Shown in pieces: positions 3,081-12,732 of a stretch of 64,000 nucleotides of DNA. The stretch lies in contig NZ_AP014724.1 of the NCBI RefSeq assembly GCF_001548055.1, positions 1,550,001 to 1,614,000 of the forward strand. Direction: 5' to 3'. Numbering within the stretch: position 1 is the first letter of the stretch; every line of letters begins with the position of its first letter. The notes beneath the pieces were generated by a model. The model searched no databases and had not been told where the DNA came from. It saw only the letters and a list, made by a program, of their open reading frames with translations. This DNA is from Sulfurospirillum cavolei. Its GTDB lineage: Bacteria > Campylobacterota > Campylobacteria > Campylobacterales > Sulfurospirillaceae. Position numbers and translations under genes: made by a program.

Positions 3081-3599
3081 ATGAAACGAGATAAAAGTAT
3101 CGAGTTGCTCAATCGCGCTATTGCCGACGAGCTTGCCACGGTTCATCAGTACATGTTTTTTCATTTTCATTGCGACGATCAAGGATACGACTTACTTTCA
3201 ACCCTTTTTAAACGTATCGCGATTGCCGAAATGCTTCATATCGAACGTTTAGCCGATCGCGTGCTTTTCTTAAAAGGCACTATCGAGATGAAAGCCGCCC
3301 AAGAGGTTCAACAAATTACCGACGTCAAAGCGATGCTCGAATTTGCACGTCAAGGCGAAGACGATGCGGTAACGATGTACAACCAATTTGCGATCGAGTG
3401 CGGCAATAACGCCGACAGCGTGACCAAAAAGCTCTTTGAAGAACTGGTTTTAGACGAAGAAGGACATTACGCCGAGTACGACGACGAGATGGACAATATG
3501 CTTAAATTCGGCGAGCAATACCTCGTCCTTCAATCCATGGAACGCAGTAAGAAAAAAGCGACGATGGCAGCCGCCGCAACAACGGCAGAACCTGCCTGA
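3081..3599 (+). CDS. Bacterioferritin/ferritin-like iron storage protein
   Basis: 172-residue four-helix ferritin-like protein. Diiron ligands are visible in helix A (ELATVHQYMFFH, residues 18-29), in the EMLHIERLADRV motif of helix B near residue 53, and in the EEGHYAEYDDE motif of helix D near residue 130. It starts at an ATG after AAGGAGA. The last about 17 residues (KKKATMAAAATTAEPA) form a low-complexity tail beyond the usual bacterioferritin length. It could store iron for the many iron-sulfur proteins made during nitrogen fixation. Its neighbours are nif genes, but it has its own -10 box and terminator. Whether it binds haem cannot be decided here. Confidence 0.8.
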   Translation: MKRDKSIELLNRAIADELATVHQYMFFHFHCDDQGYDLLSTLFKRIAIAEMLHIERLADRVLFLKGTIEMKAAQEVQQITDVKAMLEFARQGEDDAVTMYNQFAIECGNNADSVTKKLFEELVLDEEGHYAEYDDEMDNMLKFGEQYLVLQSMERSKKKATMAAAATTAEPA

Positions 3600-3608
3600 G
3601 TCTTTTTG

Positions 3609-3634
3609 AGCATAGAAGGCAACCCTTCTATGCT
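3609..3634 (+). terminator. Terminator hairpin between convergent genes
   Basis: Perfect 11-bp stem AGCATAGAAGG/CCTTCTATGCT with a CAAC loop, 10 bases after the ferritin gene stop and followed by a T-rich stretch ending in TTTTT. The right arm reaches the stop codon of the oppositely oriented CheW-domain gene. Confidence 0.75.
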
Positions 3635-6137
3635 ACCTTCCTTGTTTTTCCAACAGTAAATACCGCTCAATTTTTAGCGGATCTAAAATCGAAAGCATCT
3701 CCGCTTTTTCCTGTCCGGCATCTGATTTGACGATGGCTTTAGTGAGGGTATGTTGCCCGAGCATCGCTTGGTTCGTCTCGTCGATGCAACGAATGGGCAC
3801 TTCGGGACTGTCTTGCACCGCATCGATGACCAATCCGAAAGGATGATCGTCGTTTCCTTTCAAAACGATAATATAATTTTTTTCTTTATCGTAACTGCGT
3901 TCGTGTTGAAAATACTTCGCCAACGAAGCAACGGGGATCGTTTTGTTATTCCACGTAATCATACCGACGTAGATTTCGTCCGAACCGATCACTTTCGTGA
4001 CGTCTTGCCCTTCTAACGCGGCGTAGATCTGCTCGCTTTGTATCGCGTACAAATTCCCGTATAGCCAAAACGTCGAAAGATCGACGCTTTTTTCGCTTGC
4101 CGTGACTTTAGGATACGCATAATGTTTTGCGTGGACTTTTTTTGCCTCTTGCGACAAAGCGTTTTTATGTGCAATCCGAATACACACGACCGCAAAAACG
4201 TCGTTGACGTATCCGTCGCTGACTTTATACTCGCGATACCCCTTCGAAGCCGATTTCCCGATAATGTAATAATCATCGTCGATTAAAACGATTTTTTCGT
4301 TCGTGTCGCAAAAACGGCAACGCTCGCCTACGTTCATTTTAGGCGACGTCGATGCGATGATCGTTTGGGTTTTAGCTTCGATAAACAGTGCGAAAGAGCG
4401 TTCGTCTTCGCCAATCACGTCATGCAACATCGCCTCAAATTGCGCTTGAGCGTCAAAAACGATCGCAATGCCTCCCAATGCCTCTTTGTGCCCTTCGATA
4501 AAGATCGGAGCATTATAGATATACGTGTATTTGCCTTCGTACAGTTCGCTGGGTTCGAAGGCACTGACGACATACTCTTTAGAACTTTTTAACGCCAAGG
4601 TTTGAGCGATATAAGGCGCACCGATACGTTTCCCGACGAAATGCGCGTATTTTTCTTGGCTGACCGCCAAAACACATCCTTGCGCATCGTATACAAGCAG
4701 GTGCGCATAAACGGTGTAAAGTGCGTTGATCGTGCTAAGAACATCGCTCATCTCGCGTCCGAACTCTTTTTTAATCGTACTAAAATCTTTATACTTAGCG
4801 CTAAAGGCTTTGATAAACACGGGACTGAGCGCCCACCAACGGCAATCGTTGGCACGCTCGTAAAGGTTGCGATCCATAATATCGATCGCCAACGTCGCAC
4901 GAAACGCCGCATCGTTAATATACGAAGCCACCACCGTCCAATTCAAATTGCCGATCGACTCCTCAAAAGTCTTTTTCGTTTGTGCACCCGTACGCGAGAT
5001 CTCGTTGAGAAGCGATTTTGAAAACGAATTATCGCCGCTTTTTTGATTGGCGATTTGCACGTTTCCGTTCCAAATCGTCATATCGAGTTTGCGCTGAATC
5101 GCTTCAGCTTTGGAAGGGATATTCGTGAACTCTTCGGAAAAAAGCGACGAGTTTTTAATGATTTTTGTCTGTTCATCGCTAAAAGGCAAATGCGCTTGTT
5201 TTTTGGAAAATGCAAACGAAAGCGGTATGAGCGCGTGGGATTGCCATCCCAAACCGAAAAACCCCTGATACCCTTTGGTCTGCTTCGTACATGCAACGTA
5301 CTCTTGGGCTAAAAAGGGTACCGTATCGACTCGATTCAAAACGGTTTTGTGCGGCGCGCACAAAGGGTAATGAAACGGGTTACTACTGTAAATCGTGCGA
5401 TTTTTAGCGTCTAAGAGCAAAATATCCGTCCACGTTTCATGATCGATCAAAGGAGAGATAATCACGTGCATTTCGTCTTGAAATTTAAACACCAATCCCA
5501 GCACCGCCAAAGGTTTGCCCTGATCGTCGCAGACGCGGTAGGAGTAGATCAAACTCTCTTTGTCGTTGACGATGGGATAGATACCGAAATTTTCAACGTA
5601 CTCTTTGGACGTGTTCAACGCCGTATCGATAAAACGCCGATCGATTTTCTTACCTAATTTTTCGCCGTGCGTCGAAGCGATGAGCGTACCGTCCAAATCA
5701 AACAAGAGCACGTCGTCGTAAACGCTGTATTTTTCGATGTACTCGGCAAACCGTGCTTGTATAGAAGCCAGCGCATCGCGTTGTGCGGGTGCGTCCATCG
5801 TCGCAAAATCGCATAAGCTAACATCCGTTGCCAAAAAACCGACGTCTGCTGTTCGTTCGAACAAATTGCGAATCAAAATATCGATGGCGACTTGCGCTTT
5901 GGAACACATTTCGGTCGAAAGTTTTTTAACGGTTTCTTCGCACAGTCGTCCTAAAAGTTGTTCGGAAAGTAAACTAAAGGCTTGTCGTGTTTCGGAAATA
6001 TCCATACCGATGTTACTCATTTGCCCTAGTAAAGAGAGTAAATTCCATCGTTCGGAAAGTTGATCGAGTGCTTTTTGATAAGCAACCACCTCGGGGATAA
6101 AGGCATTGTAACGCGACGTGTCTCCTTCTTGAACCAT
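3633..6137 (-). CDS. Soluble tandem Cache-like protein with C-terminal CheW domain
   Basis: A protein of 834 residues with no signal peptide or membrane segment. The C-terminal ~130 residues (from VDLSTFWLYGNLYAI) look like a CheW adaptor domain (GMITWNNKTIPVASLAKYF, IIVLKG...FGLVIDAVQD). Upstream are two related blocks resembling Cache sensor domains: residues about 130-280 (YDDVLLFDLDGTLIASTHGEKLGKKI) and 480-640 (HLLVYDAQGCVLAVSQEKYAHFVG), here quoted in part. There is no methyl-accepting helical hairpin. I use the ATG at 6137 (AAGGGG seven bases upstream) rather than the TTG at 6143. It begins 25 bases after the nifN stop in the same direction, so it is probably co-transcribed with nifEN. 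A role coupling metabolic state to chemotaxis is an inference. Confidence 0.7.
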   Translation of the reverse strand: MVQEGDTSRYNAFIPEVVAYQKALDQLSERWNLLSLLGQMSNIGMDISETRQAFSLLSEQLLGRLCEETVKKLSTEMCSKAQVAIDILIRNLFERTADVGFLATDVSLCDFATMDAPAQRDALASIQARFAEYIEKYSVYDDVLLFDLDGTLIASTHGEKLGKKIDRRFIDTALNTSKEYVENFGIYPIVNDKESLIYSYRVCDDQGKPLAVLGLVFKFQDEMHVIISPLIDHETWTDILLLDAKNRTIYSSNPFHYPLCAPHKTVLNRVDTVPFLAQEYVACTKQTKGYQGFFGLGWQSHALIPLSFAFSKKQAHLPFSDEQTKIIKNSSLFSEEFTNIPSKAEAIQRKLDMTIWNGNVQIANQKSGDNSFSKSLLNEISRTGAQTKKTFEESIGNLNWTVVASYINDAAFRATLAIDIMDRNLYERANDCRWWALSPVFIKAFSAKYKDFSTIKKEFGREMSDVLSTINALYTVYAHLLVYDAQGCVLAVSQEKYAHFVGKRIGAPYIAQTLALKSSKEYVVSAFEPSELYEGKYTYIYNAPIFIEGHKEALGGIAIVFDAQAQFEAMLHDVIGEDERSFALFIEAKTQTIIASTSPKMNVGERCRFCDTNEKIVLIDDDYYIIGKSASKGYREYKVSDGYVNDVFAVVCIRIAHKNALSQEAKKVHAKHYAYPKVTASEKSVDLSTFWLYGNLYAIQSEQIYAALEGQDVTKVIGSDEIYVGMITWNNKTIPVASLAKYFQHERSYDKEKNYIIVLKGNDDHPFGLVIDAVQDSPEVPIRCIDETNQAMLGQHTLTKAIVKSDAGQEKAEMLSILDPLKIERYLLLEKQGR

Positions 6138-6162
6138 ACTCAAACCCCTTGTGTAAAGTAAA

Positions 6163-7467
6163 TTATTGTGACGCTTGATGATGTACTAGCAGATTGTTGA
6201 CTTCGCACAAAAACGTGCAACTACCCTCGTACAAAATAGTGTTGCGAAGCCCGACGCCGACTTGCTCATAATTGGGAAATCCTCGAATCAACAAAGCTTT
6301 ATGGTAGCGATGCGCCAGACGTTCGCCGTGGAAGTTGGAAATCAACATGTCAGAAAGCGGCAAAGACTTTTCGACCTCTTCAAAATCGCCGATGCAAACT
6401 TCACATGTAAACTCTTCTTGAATCTCGCTTCGTTGCGCAATAAAGGCTTTAACGGAAGTGCCGACTTCTAACAACGCTTTGGCGATAGCGTACGCGCTAT
6501 CGGGTTCGTCGGCGATGATCACTTTGCTTTTGCCTAAAACAAAATGGGTATCCAAAAGAACGTCTTGCAAACGCGCTCGCCAACGCTTGACACGGTTAGG
6601 AACGCTTTGAATGCCAAGATACGCCAATATTTCGGCGTAGAAGCGATCGCTGGCTTCCAAGCCCGTTAAGGTGTCAAAATGCACATGTTTCGTTTGCGCG
6701 TTTTTCTCCAAAAAAAGCTCGCCGCATTTTCGAACCGAACGCCCTATCGTGACAACAAGCCCGCAATCACCGAGTGCTTCGATGTCGCGTACTAAAATTC
6801 CGCCGCCGCTTAAAGAGCCTTGTTTTACGCCCAAATGTCCGTCAAGCGAATCGCTCAAATCAGGCAGTGCAAACACGTCAAATCCCAATTCTTCCATCGC
6901 TTCTTTGAGTTTTTCGACTTCGATCGGACTCATATTGACGTTGGGGACGAGTAAGGCTTTCTCTTGTTTTACCTTGCTCGCGGGTACGACGAGTTGCGTT
7001 ATGATATTTTGAACGCTTAAGCTCCAACCGCTCTCCAATCCGCCTTCAAAATCGGGCGTATGCACGTAAACGATTTTTTGCTTTTCCTTCAAAAGCAGCG
7101 TCGCGCCTTTGATGTCATCCCCTTTGGTTTCGGTCATTCCCGTCGTAAAAAGACCGACCAAATCGGGCGTCGTTTTTTTCGTAATGTTCTCGATCGCTTC
7201 GGAGATACCCCTTTCCCCGCCGTCGATCACCGCACTAATATCGTTGACCGCGGTCGTTTGAATTGCGATCGGGTCATTGAAGTGACGCGTAAAAAGCACT
7301 TTCGTAAACGAAGCACACCCTTGCGCTCCGTGCATTAAAGGCATACAGTTTTTGATCCCTAAAAACGCCAAGGTCGCACCCATCGGTTGCGAAAGCTTCA
7401 GCGGATTGACATGTAAGGGTTTAAGCGTGTTTGTTTTTGCCTCTTTCAACGAAAATGCCGTACTCAT
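6163..7467 (-). CDS. nifN: NifN, FeMo-cofactor scaffold subunit
   Basis: 434 residues of the nitrogenase component 1/NifN family. NifEN is the scaffold on which NifB-co matures into FeMo-cofactor by gaining Mo and homocitrate. Seen here: the N-terminal LKLSQPMGATLAFLGIKNCMPLMHGAQGC segment (in part: MPLMHGAQGC with Cys51), a GLFTTGMTETKGDDIKG stretch near residue 105, and a C-terminal nitrogenase-like domain ending in the YEQVGVG region. An AGGAGG motif precedes the ATG, which lies nine bases after the nifE stop. Confidence 0.92.
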   Translation of the reverse strand: MSTAFSLKEAKTNTLKPLHVNPLKLSQPMGATLAFLGIKNCMPLMHGAQGCASFTKVLFTRHFNDPIAIQTTAVNDISAVIDGGERGISEAIENITKKTTPDLVGLFTTGMTETKGDDIKGATLLLKEKQKIVYVHTPDFEGGLESGWSLSVQNIITQLVVPASKVKQEKALLVPNVNMSPIEVEKLKEAMEELGFDVFALPDLSDSLDGHLGVKQGSLSGGGILVRDIEALGDCGLVVTIGRSVRKCGELFLEKNAQTKHVHFDTLTGLEASDRFYAEILAYLGIQSVPNRVKRWRARLQDVLLDTHFVLGKSKVIIADEPDSAYAIAKALLEVGTSVKAFIAQRSEIQEEFTCEVCIGDFEEVEKSLPLSDMLISNFHGERLAHRYHKALLIRGFPNYEQVGVGLRNTILYEGSCTFLCEVNNLLVHHQASQ

Positions 7468-7476
7468 ATGATCCTC

Positions 7477-8823
7477 CTAAGCCGCTTCCCACGGTGCTTG
7501 TGTTCCGACGAGTTTAAAAACGGGATTGCGTAACGCCGCGCAAACGTCGAGTGCTAGATTTTCAAGTCCGCCGTACGCTCCGTAACTCACTTTTTTCTCT
7601 TGATTGACGTCCACAAAGGCGATGCGTTTCTTAATCGCCGTATAGAGGCTACGCCCGCCCGCTAATAAAATATCGACCTTGTGTTCGTCGATGAGGCGCG
7701 GTTGTTCGGTTGCGGGACTTTTAAACACGATCGGCACGTACTCTTTGGCAATGGCGATGTCTTCTTCGGTCGCCTTTTGAATCGACGTCGCAACCACTTC
7801 TATGCCGATGTCTTGAAGTGCCGAAGCGATCGACCACGACTTGTTGCCGCCGGTATTTAAAATCGCTTTTTTCCCTTTAAGCAACAATCGATACGGAGCT
7901 AAACGCTCCTCGAGCTTTGCCTCTTCTTCGGCGATAATCCGCTCGGCGCGTGCCGACAAATCCGCATCTCCAAACGCGTTGACGATGGAGCGAATGGCGT
8001 TGGAGGTATCGCGCTTACCGTAAAACGAAACGCTCACGTAAGGAATACCGTAACGCTCTTGCATCTTGCGGCACAAGGTCACTAACGACTTCGCACAAAC
8101 GATCACGTTGAGCTTGGCGGTATGCGCTTGTTGGATCGCTTCGATACGTCCGTCACCCGAAAGCGTCGAAACGACGTGAATGCCGATACGCTCTAAAATC
8201 GGACGGTACTGCCACATATCTCCCGTCACGTTGTAATCGCCGATCAAATTAATACCGTAAGGATGAATCGTCTCAGGCTCTTTCGTGCCGATGAGTGCGT
8301 CCAAAACCGCTTCGCCGGCAAGTCTTGAGCCAAGGTTTTTACTGCCGACAAATCCGGGGGCATGCACTGCAACGATCGGAAGACCGAACTGCTCGCTTGC
8401 AACCTTACATGTATAGTCGATATTGTCCCCTATCATCGCCGTGACGCATGTTTCGTAGACAAAAATCGCCTTAGGCTTTTTATGCTCTACGATGTACGCC
8501 AAAGCCGAAGCTAGCTTCTTGTCGCCGCCGAAAATGATGTCTTGCGTCGTCACGTTCGTGCAATATCCCAAAGGCGTATTATTCTCGCCTTGATAGCTTG
8601 TAAGCGTTGCTCGTGTTTCCCACGAAGCACCAAGACAGGTGTCCGGACCGTGTACGAGGTGCACGGCGTCGGCATAAGGAAAGAGGGATATTTGCGCTCC
8701 TTCAAACGCACACCCTCCGCTTGTCGCTCCGGGTTTGGGTTTATCACAGCTACTTTTTTTGGTTTTGTTATGAGAACAAGCACTCTCGTTTAACAAATCC
8801 TTGATCAGTTTCGTATTTACCAT
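7477..8823 (-). CDS. nifE: NifE, FeMo-cofactor scaffold subunit
   Basis: 448 residues, partner of NifN. The N terminus (LLNESACSHN...KPKPGATSGGCAFEGAQ) matches classic NifE closely, fixing the start. Probable ligands of the permanent 4Fe-4S cluster and cofactor are Cys38, Cys63 (GPDTCLGASW) and the Cys in YETCVTAMIGDN near residue 125. No good ribosome site is seen; the sequence just upstream is a -24/-12 element whose predicted start point is within a few bases of the ATG, so the message may be nearly leaderless or another promoter may be used. It is first gene of nifE-nifN-CheW. Confidence 0.93.
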   Translation of the reverse strand: MVNTKLIKDLLNESACSHNKTKKSSCDKPKPGATSGGCAFEGAQISLFPYADAVHLVHGPDTCLGASWETRATLTSYQGENNTPLGYCTNVTTQDIIFGGDKKLASALAYIVEHKKPKAIFVYETCVTAMIGDNIDYTCKVASEQFGLPIVAVHAPGFVGSKNLGSRLAGEAVLDALIGTKEPETIHPYGINLIGDYNVTGDMWQYRPILERIGIHVVSTLSGDGRIEAIQQAHTAKLNVIVCAKSLVTLCRKMQERYGIPYVSVSFYGKRDTSNAIRSIVNAFGDADLSARAERIIAEEEAKLEERLAPYRLLLKGKKAILNTGGNKSWSIASALQDIGIEVVATSIQKATEEDIAIAKEYVPIVFKSPATEQPRLIDEHKVDILLAGGRSLYTAIKKRIAFVDVNQEKKVSYGAYGGLENLALDVCAALRNPVFKLVGTQAPWEAA

Positions 8824-8835
8824 ATAGCTTAATTT

Positions 8836-8849
8836 GCAAGAGGTGTTCC
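8836..8849 (-). promoter_or_regulatory. Sigma-54 type element facing nifE
   Basis: On the minus strand GG-AACACCTCTT-GC with TTTG before and AA after, an excellent -24/-12 fit. It ends only 12 bases before the nifE start codon and forms one arm of a 13-bp inverted repeat (8841-8853 and 8867-8879) whose other arm contains the divergent promoter. Confidence 0.6.
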
Positions 8850-8870
8850 TTTGACTTTTTTATCTCCAAA

Positions 8871-8884
8871 GGAACACCTTATGC
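8871..8884 (+). promoter_or_regulatory. Sigma-54 promoter of the ferredoxin-flavodiiron operon
   Basis: GG-AACACCTTAT-GC with exact 10-base spacing, preceded by CCAAA. The predicted transcript starts near 8896 and has a leader of about 120 bases that contains a long hairpin (8927-8962). Confidence 0.72.
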
Positions 8885-8926
8885 AATGTAGAAAGCGTGT
8901 ACCTTTAAAAACCCTTACTCAACGCG

Positions 8927-8962
8927 ACCCTGATGCAAATATGCCCTTATTTGCTTCAGGGT
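8927..8962 (+). promoter_or_regulatory. Long hairpin in the leader of the nif ferredoxin operon
   Basis: Arms ACCCTGATGCAAATA and TATTTGCTTCAGGGT pair over 15 positions with one T-T mismatch and a six-base loop. It sits about 30 bases into the predicted leader and is followed at some distance by GGTTTTTT. It may be an attenuator, a stabilising 5' structure, or a protein-binding palindrome in the DNA. Confidence 0.55.
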
Positions 8963-9016
8963 TGGTTTGTACAAAGGTTTTTTGAGAGACACTATTTTAC
9001 ATGTAAAGGATCTATC

Positions 9017-9394
9017 ATGGCAGTCAAAATTACCGAACTTTGCATCAATTGCGACAGTTGTATCGACGAGTGCCCCGCAACCGCGATCGTAAGTGCATCC
9101 GATTCGCCTATCAACGGCGAAACAACGTACGTCAAGCCCGAAAAATGCATCGAATGTGCCGACGGTACGATGCCAAAATGTGCGGACGCCTGTCCCACCG
9201 AGGGTGCTATCGTTTGGGATATGCCTTATACGGCGGAATTTAACGCGTACTACGTATCGGGTCACGAAAGCGGTTTATACAATATCCGCGAGCATAAGAA
9301 AAACGGCATTATGTTTCCCGAAGTTTCCCCTAAACCGTATCGCGAAGCTATCTCTATCGCTGATCGCGAAGCGCACGTTCCCGTTAACGCGTAA
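9017..9394 (+). CDS. 2[4Fe-4S] ferredoxin, nif-associated
   Basis: 125-residue bacterial ferredoxin. First cluster motif CINCDSCIDECP at residues about 9-20. The second, CIECADGTMPKCADACP, has a seven-residue gap between the second and third Cys, as in Allochromatium-type (FdxN-like) ferredoxins that serve NifB and nitrogenase. The start is the ATG after AAAGGATCTATC. A C-terminal extension of ~55 residues without Cys follows (NAYYVSGHESGLYNIREHKK). It heads a three-gene operon with a NifX-like protein and a flavodiiron protein. Likely an electron donor in cofactor synthesis or to nitrogenase reductase. Confidence 0.87.
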   Translation: MAVKITELCINCDSCIDECPATAIVSASDSPINGETTYVKPEKCIECADGTMPKCADACPTEGAIVWDMPYTAEFNAYYVSGHESGLYNIREHKKNGIMFPEVSPKPYREAISIADREAHVPVNA

Positions 9395-9403
9395 GGAAAT
9401 ACG

Positions 9404-9778
9404 ATGAAAATAGCATTTGCATCTACGGACAACCTCCATGTCAACGACCATTTCGGATGGTGCAAATGCTTTTACATGTACGAACTTCATAACGACTCTT
9501 TTAGCTTTTTAAAAACGCTCCCGTCGCCGAACGAGCATAGCGAAGAAGGGGATAAACTTGCCTACAAAATCGCTTGTTTGGAAGATGCAAATATCCTCTG
9601 TGCTTCCCATATCGGACCGCGTGCTTCGCTCTTGGTCAAGGGTTCGGGTATTTTTGTTTTAAAAAGCGAAAAAGAGAACGAACGCATCGAAGATGTTTTA
9701 AACACGCTTTTACGGCTCAAAAACACGCAACCTCCTTTGTGGATGCAAAGGTTTTTACATGCACCCTCTGCCTCTTGA
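9404..9778 (+). CDS. NifX/NafY-family FeMo-cofactor-binding protein
   Basis: 124 residues of the dinitrogenase iron-molybdenum cofactor family, paralogous to NifX at 2042-2398. The hallmark VNDHFGWCKCFYMYEL is near residue 13, with an extra CKC motif, and the central ILCASHIGPRASLLVKGSG matches the GPAAAAKVV region of NifX. The last residues, PPLWMQRFL, resemble the PPPFIKKIL ending of NifX. It probably carries a cofactor precursor. It begins nine bases after the ferredoxin stop and overlaps the flavodiiron gene by 20 bases. Confidence 0.8.
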   Translation: MKIAFASTDNLHVNDHFGWCKCFYMYELHNDSFSFLKTLPSPNEHSEEGDKLAYKIACLEDANILCASHIGPRASLLVKGSGIFVLKSEKENERIEDVLNTLLRLKNTQPPLWMQRFLHAPSAS

Positions 9779-10991
9779 AATCGCACCGGATATTTTTTAT
9801 ATAGGCGTACTGGATCCCGATATTCGAACGTTCGACATCGTGATGCACACCGCCAACGGCTCAAGCTATAACGCTTATTTGATTCAAACCAGCCAAGGCG
9901 TCATCATCGTCGATACCGTCAAAAAAGAGTTTCAAGAACTTTTTTTTAACCGCATCGAATCTTTATGCGATTATACGGCGATTCGCTACGTCATCGTCCA
10001 TCACATCGAGCCCGATCATTCGGGTGCGCTTCCAGAACTCATCGCGCGCGCACCGCATGCTAAAGTCTTAATATCGCCGCAAGCTACGACGATGCTTAAA
10101 GCCCTTACCGGAAGCGAAAATATCGACTTTGAAACGATCTGGACCAACAAACAACTGCATTTAGGAAACAAGACCTTAACGTTTTTGAGCACGCCTTATT
10201 TGCATTGGCCCGAGACGATGAGTTCGTACGTCGAAGAGGACAAACTGCTCTTTAGCGGCGACGTTTTCGGGGCGCACTATTGCGATCGACGCCTTTTTAA
10301 CGATAAAGTGGGCGATTTTTGGTATGCGTTTGAATATTATTACGACCATATTATGCGCCCGTTTCAAAGCTACGTGAAAAGTGCGCTCAAACTCTACGAC
10401 CGCTTGGATATTCAAACGATCGCGCCGCTTCACGGTCCGATCATTCGCGAAAATCCTTCCACGTATATCGAAGCGTACCGTCAATGGAGCACCAAGCTCG
10501 AACGCCATAAAAAGGGGCAAAAAGTTCTCTCGATTTTTTATTTAACGAGCTACAAAAACACGCAAGAGATGGCGCAAGCCATTTACGAGGGAGCGGAGAG
10601 CGTAGAAAACATCGTAACCAATATCTACGATTTGGCGTCTATCGAAGAGCAAAATATGATTCGGATTCTTGAAGAGAGCGACGGATTTTTAATCGGAACA
10701 CCGACCATTAACGCCGATGCGCCCAAACCGGTCTGGAATCTGCTTTCGTGTTTGATGTTTTTGGATAAGCAAGGTAAAAGTGCCGGAGCATTCGGCTCTT
10801 ACGGCTGGAGCGGCGAAGCCATCGATCATATTCTTGCGCGCTTGAAAGCTCTCAAACTCAGAGTCCCTCCGCTAGAACCGATGAAAATCAAGCTGATTCC
10901 CACCGAAGAAGAGCTTCAACGATGCTTTTGTTACGGCGTCGAATTTGCCGAAATTTTAAACGGTAAAATGATCGAAATCGATCTGGCGTAA
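9759..10991 (+). CDS. Flavodiiron protein (A-type flavoprotein, O2/NO reductase)
   Basis: 410 residues: an N-terminal metallo-beta-lactamase-like diiron domain (about 1-255) and a C-terminal flavodoxin domain. Diiron ligands are visible as HHIEPDHSG near residue 87, HWPETM near 150, the Asp in FSGDVFG near 170 and LHGPII near 228. The FMN loop is FYLTSYKNTQEMAQAI near residue 258. Flavodiiron proteins reduce O2 to water or NO to N2O. No rubredoxin domain is fused, so an external donor is needed, possibly the operon ferredoxin. In a nif operon the obvious inference is oxygen protection of nitrogenase. Confidence 0.88.
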   Translation: MHPLPLEIAPDIFYIGVLDPDIRTFDIVMHTANGSSYNAYLIQTSQGVIIVDTVKKEFQELFFNRIESLCDYTAIRYVIVHHIEPDHSGALPELIARAPHAKVLISPQATTMLKALTGSENIDFETIWTNKQLHLGNKTLTFLSTPYLHWPETMSSYVEEDKLLFSGDVFGAHYCDRRLFNDKVGDFWYAFEYYYDHIMRPFQSYVKSALKLYDRLDIQTIAPLHGPIIRENPSTYIEAYRQWSTKLERHKKGQKVLSIFYLTSYKNTQEMAQAIYEGAESVENIVTNIYDLASIEEQNMIRILEESDGFLIGTPTINADAPKPVWNLLSCLMFLDKQGKSAGAFGSYGWSGEAIDHILARLKALKLRVPPLEPMKIKLIPTEEELQRCFCYGVEFAEILNGKMIEIDLA

Positions 10992-10998
10992 CAAGGTG

Positions 10999-12732
10999 CT
11001 AGTTGAGCAGCTCTTGTTGCGGCTTACCGATAAAATACCCTTGAAATTCGTCGATACCTAAGGGAATCAACGTATCGAAAACCGCTTCGTTATGCACAAA
11101 CTCGGCAATCGTTTTGATTTGCAAAGCTTTGGCAAACGAGACGATCGCTTTGACCAACTGAAACGATTGGGTATCGTGATCGATGTCTTTAATCAAGCTC
11201 CCGTCGATTTTCAAGTAAGCCGGATGCATCTCCATAATGTTGGTAAAATTGGAATACCCCGTACCGAAATCATCGATCGCGATCGGCGCTTTTTCATACT
11301 TGACGTATTTTAAAAAATGCTTGATCGTATTAAAATCTCCGATTTTTTCGCTCTCTACGACCTCAAACACTAAGTTAAATCGTTGGCGTTTTTCTTGGTA
11401 ATCGATGATTTTCGCACGCACGCAATCGCGAATCTCTTTATTGAGCATATCCCGAAAACTAAAATTGATCGAAAAATCAAGATGTAAGTTGGCTTGCGCT
11501 TTTTCGAGAACTTTTTCGATCATACAAAAACTTAACATGTCATACTGTTTCGTTCGGCGCGCAATATCGAGAAAATAGTACGGAGAGACGTATTGCTCTG
11601 CTCCACATTTATCTTTCGTACGAATACGAATCAACGCCTCGTATTTGACGATGCGCTTGTCGGCGTTGCAAATCGGTTGATAAAACGGCACGACGTTGTC
11701 TTGATTGAGCGTGTCGTTAATGACGTCTTGCCAATAAAAATCGTTCGATAAGGATTCGGTTTCGTCAAGATTGCTCGTATAAACGACAAAACTTTTTCCC
11801 GTTTGCTTGGCAAAATCAAGTGCGGTAAAGGCTTTATTGAAAAGATTTTCTTGATCGAACGTCACGCCCATCGAGATATGAATCAAGATTTTTTCGCTTA
11901 ACGCGTCGACTTTTAACTCCAACCCGTCGAGGGCTTCCAAGGTTGCCTGCACGTCTTCGTAAATCTTTTCGGGATCAAGCTGTTGATCGATCGAGAGCAT
12001 CACGAATTCGTTGGTCGCAATACGAAATGCGCTGTAAAAAAGAGACTGTGCCGCCTCTTTTAACACGTCCGCAAAGGCTTTAAGGATGTCGTTGCCGATC
12101 TCCATACCGTAGAGTTTATTGTAATTTTTAAATTGATCGATCGTAATCAGGAAAAGAGCCGGTACGTCGTCGGACGAAATCTCTTTTAACATTAAATCGA
12201 GCGCATTTTTATTGGAAAGCTTGGTTAAAGGATCGTTGTAACGTTGCTCTTCAAGCGCATGATTTTGCGTCAAAATCGTCTGTTCCAATCCGTACATGTA
12301 CGCTTTGGTCTCTTGCTTCATCACGATCGTCTCGACGGTGGAAGAAAGCGTTTCAAAAAATTGGTCGAGTTCGAGAGGTTTTAAAATATAGCCGTTGACG
12401 TTTAAACGAATCGTTTCGATGAAAAACTCGCTGTCGTTATACGCGGACGTAACGATCGTTGCGATGTCGCGAGAGTGTTTGCGTATCTGAGCGATTAACT
12501 CCAAACCGTTCATTTTCGGCATTTTAATATCGCTCATTACCAAATCGTAAGGTCGTTTGGCTTCTCTAAAAAGACGGTACGCCTCTTCTCCGTCTTGCGC
12601 CGTGTCGATGTGTTCGAAAAAATCTTTTAAAATATCCAACATCGAACAACGAATTTCTTCGTCATCTTCAGCGTATAAAAGAAAAAGCGGTTTCGTGCGT
12701 ATTTTTAACGCCTCAATGTCGCAGGGTTCCAT
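10999..12732 (-). CDS. Response regulator with degenerate GGDEF and intact EAL domain
   Basis: 577 residues, cytoplasmic. Receiver domain residues about 14-130 with the acidic pair in YAEDDEE, the phospho-acceptor Asp in LVMSDIKMP, Thr/Ser in IVTSAY and Lys in ILKPLE. A GGDEF-type domain (about 175-310) has RIATNEF where the active GGDEF signature should be, so it should not make c-di-GMP. The EAL domain (about 335-575) retains KYEALIRI, DDFGTGYS, LKIDGSLI, AEFVHNEA and QGYFIGKP, the set needed for c-di-GMP hydrolysis. Probable output is c-di-GMP degradation controlled by phosphorylation. It is convergent with the flavodiiron gene. Confidence 0.85.
   Translation of the reverse strand: MEPCDIEALKIRTKPLFLLYAEDDEEIRCSMLDILKDFFEHIDTAQDGEEAYRLFREAKRPYDLVMSDIKMPKMNGLELIAQIRKHSRDIATIVTSAYNDSEFFIETIRLNVNGYILKPLELDQFFETLSSTVETIVMKQETKAYMYGLEQTILTQNHALEEQRYNDPLTKLSNKNALDLMLKEISSDDVPALFLITIDQFKNYNKLYGMEIGNDILKAFADVLKEAAQSLFYSAFRIATNEFVMLSIDQQLDPEKIYEDVQATLEALDGLELKVDALSEKILIHISMGVTFDQENLFNKAFTALDFAKQTGKSFVVYTSNLDETESLSNDFYWQDVINDTLNQDNVVPFYQPICNADKRIVKYEALIRIRTKDKCGAEQYVSPYYFLDIARRTKQYDMLSFCMIEKVLEKAQANLHLDFSINFSFRDMLNKEIRDCVRAKIIDYQEKRQRFNLVFEVVESEKIGDFNTIKHFLKYVKYEKAPIAIDDFGTGYSNFTNIMEMHPAYLKIDGSLIKDIDHDTQSFQLVKAIVSFAKALQIKTIAEFVHNEAVFDTLIPLGIDEFQGYFIGKPQQELLN

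Follow-up and report, generated by a model that had tools for sequence, protein, structure and literature searches.

A stretch of 64,000 nucleotides of the Sulfurospirillum cavolei genome, hereafter the window, carries directly behind nifN a gene for an 834-residue protein in which two double-Cache (dCache) sensor modules are followed by a C-terminal CheW domain, and which has no membrane segment. On balance, we favour the reading that this protein is an accessory cytosolic sensor, made under nif/sigma-54 control, which docks on the chemotaxis array by way of a diverged CheW domain. More tentatively, and as a proposition about which we are rather divided, it may represent a widespread tandem-dCache-CheW class found in at least three phyla, which docks through its diverged CheW domain, belongs to the nif/sigma-54 regulon in many diazotrophs, and furnishes the array with a new input.

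The sensor gene and its nif neighbourhood

The features on which the regulatory argument rests are as follows.

3633–6137, minus strand: sensor gene of dCache-dCache-CheW architecture, 834 residues, no membrane segment (open reading frame, Pfam, orthologues, hydropathy, AlphaFold model)
6163–7467, minus strand: nifN, on the same strand as the sensor gene (TIGR01285, 381 bits; cut-off 327)
7477–8823, minus strand: nifE, opening the predicted nifE-nifN-sensor operon (open reading frame and orthologue cluster)
8836–8849, minus strand: sigma-54-type promoter of nifE, GGAACACCTCTTGC, of the form GG-N10-GC (one match in the window, against 0.20 expected in shuffles)

The sensor frame opens with an ATG at 6137 and closes with a stop at 3633-3635; a TTG two codons upstream of the ATG is also a possible start. 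A preliminary description had proposed an 834-residue protein at 3633-6137, lying 25 bases after nifN. The frame is real, and can now be assigned to the minus strand; the gap, measured at 25 nt (6138-6162), separates it from the end of nifN at 6163 on that same strand. Fourteen orthologues and strong conservation rule out a chance reading frame or the wrong strand: mean column identity across the 14 is 88%, and the protein sequence, as read from this alignment, is under selection. Convergent with the sensor gene is a gene for a ferritin-like protein of 172 residues (window 3081-3599, plus strand), which is a member of the nif cluster in many relatives (cluster 17).

Among 24 Sulfurospirillum-group genomes surveyed, 14 hold a full-length sensor gene, and one further genome a fragment at a contig end. 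All 14 full-length orthologues lie downstream of nifE-nifN, on the same strand and before the nifX operon, so that the linkage to nifEN noted in the preliminary description is conserved in every full-length carrier of the genus. In four of them the sensor gene follows nifN directly, at 16-21 nt when longest-frame starts are used, and in the other ten further genes intervene. Seven nif-positive genomes of the genus have no sensor gene, so nitrogen fixation as such does not require it. The interval between nifN and the sensor gene is an insertion hot spot in relatives (L081, L084, L086, L087), with strain-dependent insertions that by eye include an aldehyde dehydrogenase, a flavocytochrome c with a multihaem cytochrome, a porin, an MscS-like channel and a histidine kinase. 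Elsewhere, at 1232338-1236431 of genome G000 and outside the window, further NifN/NifK-like and NifA-like genes make up a second set, also present in G006, G008, G015, G017, G020 and G023, which is possibly an alternative nitrogenase.

Promoter evidence runs parallel to that of gene order. Each of the ten genomes whose sensor gene is not behind nifN has a sigma-54-type element, such as CTACGGAACACTTCTTGTATA, upstream of that gene; the nifX operon is preceded by the identical element, and nifE and a nif-linked ferredoxin gene by close variants of it. The exact 18-mer occurs five times in the 24 genomes, four of these upstream of the sensor gene, and a reversed-pattern control gave no occurrence. 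Rather than an independent promoter and a loss of synteny, which would have spoken against the preliminary interpretation, we thus find synteny kept and free-standing promoters that resemble those of nif operons. If membership of the nif regulon is taken to be position in a nif operon or possession of a sigma-54-type promoter, the sensor gene belongs to it, and in the window it is predicted to close an operon of nifE, nifN and the sensor gene that is read from a sigma-54-type promoter. The genome encodes two NifA-like activators; the classical NifA site, TGT-N10-ACA, is not enriched at the sensor gene or at the nif operons compared with it (2 found, 2.3 expected).

Three further observations concern these promoters. 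The GG of the nifE element precedes the predicted ATG by 26 nt (window 8821-8849, minus strand), as it does in G003, G007, G010, G018 and G022; with this spacing, transcription would begin no more than one or two bases from the ATG, and the nifE mRNA may be leaderless, or its start codon further in. At window 8838-8880 the divergent sigma-54-type promoters of nifE (minus strand) and the nif-linked ferredoxin (plus strand) form an inverted repeat, AAGGTGTTCCTTTG...CAAAGGAACACCT, and are mirror images about a 13-nt centre. Finally, a pyridoxal-phosphate aminotransferase gene outside the window has upstream of it, at G000 1492794-1492810, the exact 17-mer of the promoter found at the sensor gene of relatives.

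Domain architecture and predicted fold

Three regions of the protein can be delimited.

5196–5948, minus strand: first double-Cache module, residues 64-314, with a long N-terminal helix bearing RNLFERTADVGFLATD (model, DctB match, partial dCache_1 match, family-wide motif)
4149–4949, minus strand: second double-Cache module, residues 397-663, with a helix bearing DRNLYERANDCRWWAL (Pfam and model); it duplicates the first half
3651–4088, minus strand: C-terminal CheW domain, residues 684-829, with LRG replaced by WNN (PF01584, TtCheW fold)

The domain search that the preliminary description had proposed places both CheW and Cache_WalK above their Pfam cut-offs, the latter at 30.7 bits for a cut-off of 27. 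The dCache_1 family gave a partial match (E 2e-6, 27.7 bits) which does not reach the curated cut-off of 45, a cut-off that the relative L066 clears at 50.9 bits. An AlphaFold model was built on an alignment of 26 sequences, including CheW-bearing relatives from other families, and reached a mean pLDDT of 83.7; in an earlier model from 17 sequences the sensor part was folded and the CheW part, where that alignment was shallow, was not. Residues 66-307 of the model match DctB (3by9; Z 20.0, rmsd 2.3, 221 residues) and residues 397-663 a histidine-kinase sensor domain (3lif; Z 18.6, rmsd 3.0). Both modules of the model therefore have the tandem PDC fold after a long helix that characterizes dCache domains, but not the extracellular position between flanking membrane helices, as the protein has no hydrophobic segment. 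Two Cache-like blocks had been described initially, and two are present; that count slightly understated the sensor, each block being a full double Cache. The halves are 27% identical to each other (E 2e-16) and are, on this similarity, an internal duplication, with the family motifs RNLFERTAD(I/V)GFLATD and DRNLYERANDCRWWAL in the long helices of the first and second halves, respectively.

The cytosolic and non-receptor character first ascribed to the protein is likewise borne out. Its peak 19-residue hydropathy is 1.24, against 2.79 in a methyl-accepting chemotaxis protein (MCP) control, and neither a membrane helix nor a signal peptide is evident from the hydropathy profile. MCPsignal (PF00015), which would mark a methyl-accepting region, has no Pfam match at E<=1, nor have receiver or kinase domains, and a CheR-like SAM-binding domain is absent from the Pfam results; the protein ends with CheW, with no receiver after it in Pfam. 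This domain content rules out identification as an ordinary MCP or CheV.

Conservation is unevenly spread along the 14 orthologues, identity being 99% in CheW residues 707-743, 97% in the connecting helices (residues 335-435), and lowest, at 86-88%, in the Cache cores, a pattern which would fit conserved signalling with a drifting input site. Separately, the second Cache module has a CxxC (CRFC, residues 607-610) in nearly all orthologues of the genus, though not in G010 or in other families, and this is a possible redox or metal site.

The C-terminal CheW assignment of the preliminary description stands on both profile and fold: PF01584 matches residues 689-823 (E 4e-16, 59.3 bits, cut-off 23.5), and the model matches TtCheW (2qdl) over residues 683-832 (Z 16.9, rmsd 2.3, 138 of 146 residues) and, at its C-terminus, chain C of the E. 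coli core-unit entry 6s1k (Z 16.3). The domain is nevertheless diverged. The LRG arginine is present in all 35 canonical CheW, CheV and CheA-P5 domains compared, which come from nine carrier genomes; it is missing from every one of the 19 Campylobacterota fusions examined, and survives in just nine of 71 fused domains in a wider set. The protein of the window has N at this position. We take this arginine to be R62 of E. coli CheW, and to be functionally important. Fused CheW domains group together, apart from the 35 canonical domains and on a branch nearer CheV than CheA-P5, which suggests a single fusion event. Since the arginine has been lost, a role as an ordinary coupler is unlikely; since the rest of the domain is strongly conserved, the sequence argues that it still binds some partner. 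Given the absent arginine, docking on the array may be weak or altered.

The same combination, a lost conserved arginine within an otherwise strongly conserved CheW fold, could also be expected of an array decoy or brake, in which the diverged domain competes with CheW or caps the rings and so damps CheA. Energy-limited, nitrogen-fixing cells would then swim less, until a ligand on the Cache modules relieved the damping. We consider both the braking role and this elaboration of it improbable; that a single conserved residue has been lost is no demonstration of a dominant-negative effect.

Distribution and the nature of the input

A double-Cache protein of this kind occurs in 75 of 397 Campylobacterota genomes, of which 48 were judged CheW-bearing by an open frame of at least 840 residues, with the CheW sequence confirmed directly in the fusions that were fetched. 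nifN accompanies 39 of these 48, compared with 33 of the 349 other genomes (Fisher test, 1.5e-25, not corrected for phylogeny). All 18 double-Cache carriers of a Sulfurimonadaceae-like family are nif-positive, and in one of them the sensor gene follows at 59 nt a gene for a NifA-like activator, whose score of 512 bits falls slightly short of the cut-off of 529. Carriers in an Arcobacter-like family, where the gene has a housekeeping neighbourhood, divide into 13 of 23 that are nif-positive and ten that are nif-negative. An in-frame TAG cuts the CheW part short in L130 (G388), an extra copy of the sensor gene that is probably a pseudogene.

Homologues without CheW also exist, and evidently the sensor half can work without that domain. 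This bears on a reading in which the protein has no part in chemotaxis, its CheW being a reused protein-interaction module directed at some other target, for example in nif regulation. Azospirillum CheA mutants alter nif promoters (PMC8561660), which lends that reading some support, although the cross-talk there runs in the other direction. We think it very improbable: CheW is among the most conserved parts of the protein, and canonical CheW, CheV or CheA domains were found in all nine carrier genomes examined. In addition, the CheW-less relative L065 (G056, 8167-11100) is followed after 21 nt by a gene that is CheV-like by eye (CheW plus receiver), an arrangement which suggests a partnership of double Cache and CheW without fusion.

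The architecture had been called unusual in the preliminary description, a judgement that does not survive a wider search. At least 516 relatives turned up across about 85,000 species genomes, and the best 80 of them are nearly all full-length fusions; non-diazotrophs are among the carriers. These span Sulfurimonadaceae-like and Arcobacter-like Campylobacterota, Beta- and Gammaproteobacteria and Deferribacterota, with Rhodocyclaceae, Gallionella, Methylobacter, Allochromatium, Acidithiobacillus and Seleniivibrio named among the best 80 of the at least 516; an architecture unique to the genus or phylum is thereby ruled out. NifH scored above its cut-off in 29 of 46 carriers outside Campylobacterota, a best-scoring set without a matched control; a published survey puts the general figure at about 9% of genomes (PMC12903952). 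Several methylotroph carriers have no nifH.

Neighbours were searched at 80 loci, five of which yielded no family frame with the ORF picker and were counted as loci and excluded from the promoter test. Outside Campylobacterota, a nif-type gene lies within 8 kb, by similarity, at nine of 48 loci. In Rhodocyclaceae the order is nifN, a NifX-associated gene, fdxN and, after 15 nt, the sensor gene, with NifN, the NifX-associated protein and the ferredoxin confirmed by profile; a Methylobacter locus runs from nifDK to the sensor gene, and Gallionella loci have nifE/nifK flanks, with NifK profile-confirmed in both. Some carriers have the sensor gene beside nifHDK, and draG/nifQ neighbours occur, DraG being profile-confirmed at two other loci. 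Sigma-54-like sites scoring at least 8 precede the sensor gene in 18 of 43 cases outside Campylobacterota, against 44 of 490 control genes.

Nif-negative carriers rule out a strict tie to diazotrophy, and since some carriers lack nif, the sensed cue need not be specific to nitrogenase. With relatives present in non-diazotrophs, a general metabolic cue is probable, and the link to nif would then lie in how expression is controlled. Taken further, the protein could be a general sigma-54-controlled metabolic sensor which docks in any low-nitrogen or motility-related state, its nif linkage reflecting shared sigma-54 control and nothing else. The nif-negative Arcobacter-like carriers, the methylotrophs without nifH, and the enrichment of sigma-54-like sites outside Campylobacterota, which extends to carriers without nifH (L248, L260), all favour this. 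We regard it as unlikely, if well worth weighing, as every full-length carrier in the genus keeps the gene inside the nif cluster, its promoter matches those of the nif operons themselves, and linkage to nif arose again in Rhodocyclaceae, Methylobacter and Gallionella.

In the favoured reading of an accessory, nif-controlled array sensor, the protein would be made once the sigma-54/nif system is on, and its CheW domain would join the CheA/CheW ring of the existing array, though in a capacity other than that of an ordinary coupler. Binding to the Cache modules of a small molecule inside the cell, or of a metabolic cue, would shift the helices and so change CheA activity, biasing swimming toward conditions friendly to nitrogen fixation, such as low oxygen and a good energy or carboxylate supply. 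Possible partners are at hand in the organism's own genome, which encodes 35 MCPs, two CheA, two CheW and one CheV. That the ligand might be a carboxylate or amino acid, as bound by the structural neighbours, is only a hint. The direct tie of a sensed signal to the chemotaxis array, put forward in the preliminary description, is an inference.

Precedents and biological meaning

The protein belongs to a known kind, the sensor-CheW fusions, and its closest precedent is CheWS of Treponema denticola, in which the CheW part anchors a cytosolic sensor at the array (PMC10653840). The two share the fusion of CheW to a cytosolic sensor, anchoring having been shown for CheWS (PMC10653840). CheWS, however, joins an N-terminal CheW to a CheR-like SAM sensor (PMC10653840), whereas the protein described here has its CheW at the C-terminus, two double-Cache modules and a link to nif. 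That paper counts 30 CheW architectures that had not been described; Cache goes unmentioned in its main text, and its Fig. S10 may list the present one. CheV resembles the protein in pairing a CheW-like domain with a second domain, and in lying nearer to the fused CheW domains than CheA-P5 does, but our protein lacks the receiver, has a large Cache sensor and has lost the LRG arginine. Each half shares its fold and long N-terminal helix with the dCache sensors DctB, KinD and Tlp1/Tlp3 (PMC4822843); unlike these extracellular sensors, the protein is cytosolic, has its modules in tandem, and has CheW as output in place of a kinase or MCP signalling domain. TlpD of H. pylori is likewise a membrane-free chemotaxis sensor in Campylobacterota, but it is a receptor whose MCP signalling domain is bound by CheW (PMC13001251), where the present protein has no such domain and carries CheW itself. 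A literature search on CheW-Cache fusions and on sensors linking nif to chemotaxis found no description, and the family is apparently as unstudied as it is widespread.

The usual view makes Cache domains the chief extracellular sensors of bacteria, with Cache families principally extracellular save for two small intracellular exceptions (PMC4822843), and CheW a passive coupler; in the present family, which is large, double-Cache sensors sit inside the cell and CheW itself is the output. The interpretation linking nif and the array is plausible, and regulon and synteny support it better than could be known from the window alone. Repeated placement among nif genes offers a genetic handle on how diazotrophs match their movement to the demand of nitrogenase for little oxygen and plenty of energy, suggesting that nitrogen-fixing physiology is allowed to influence swimming. 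In Azospirillum, chemotaxis kinases affect nif expression (PMC8561660); if our reading is true, influence would also run the opposite way, from the nif regulon to the array by means of this sensor.
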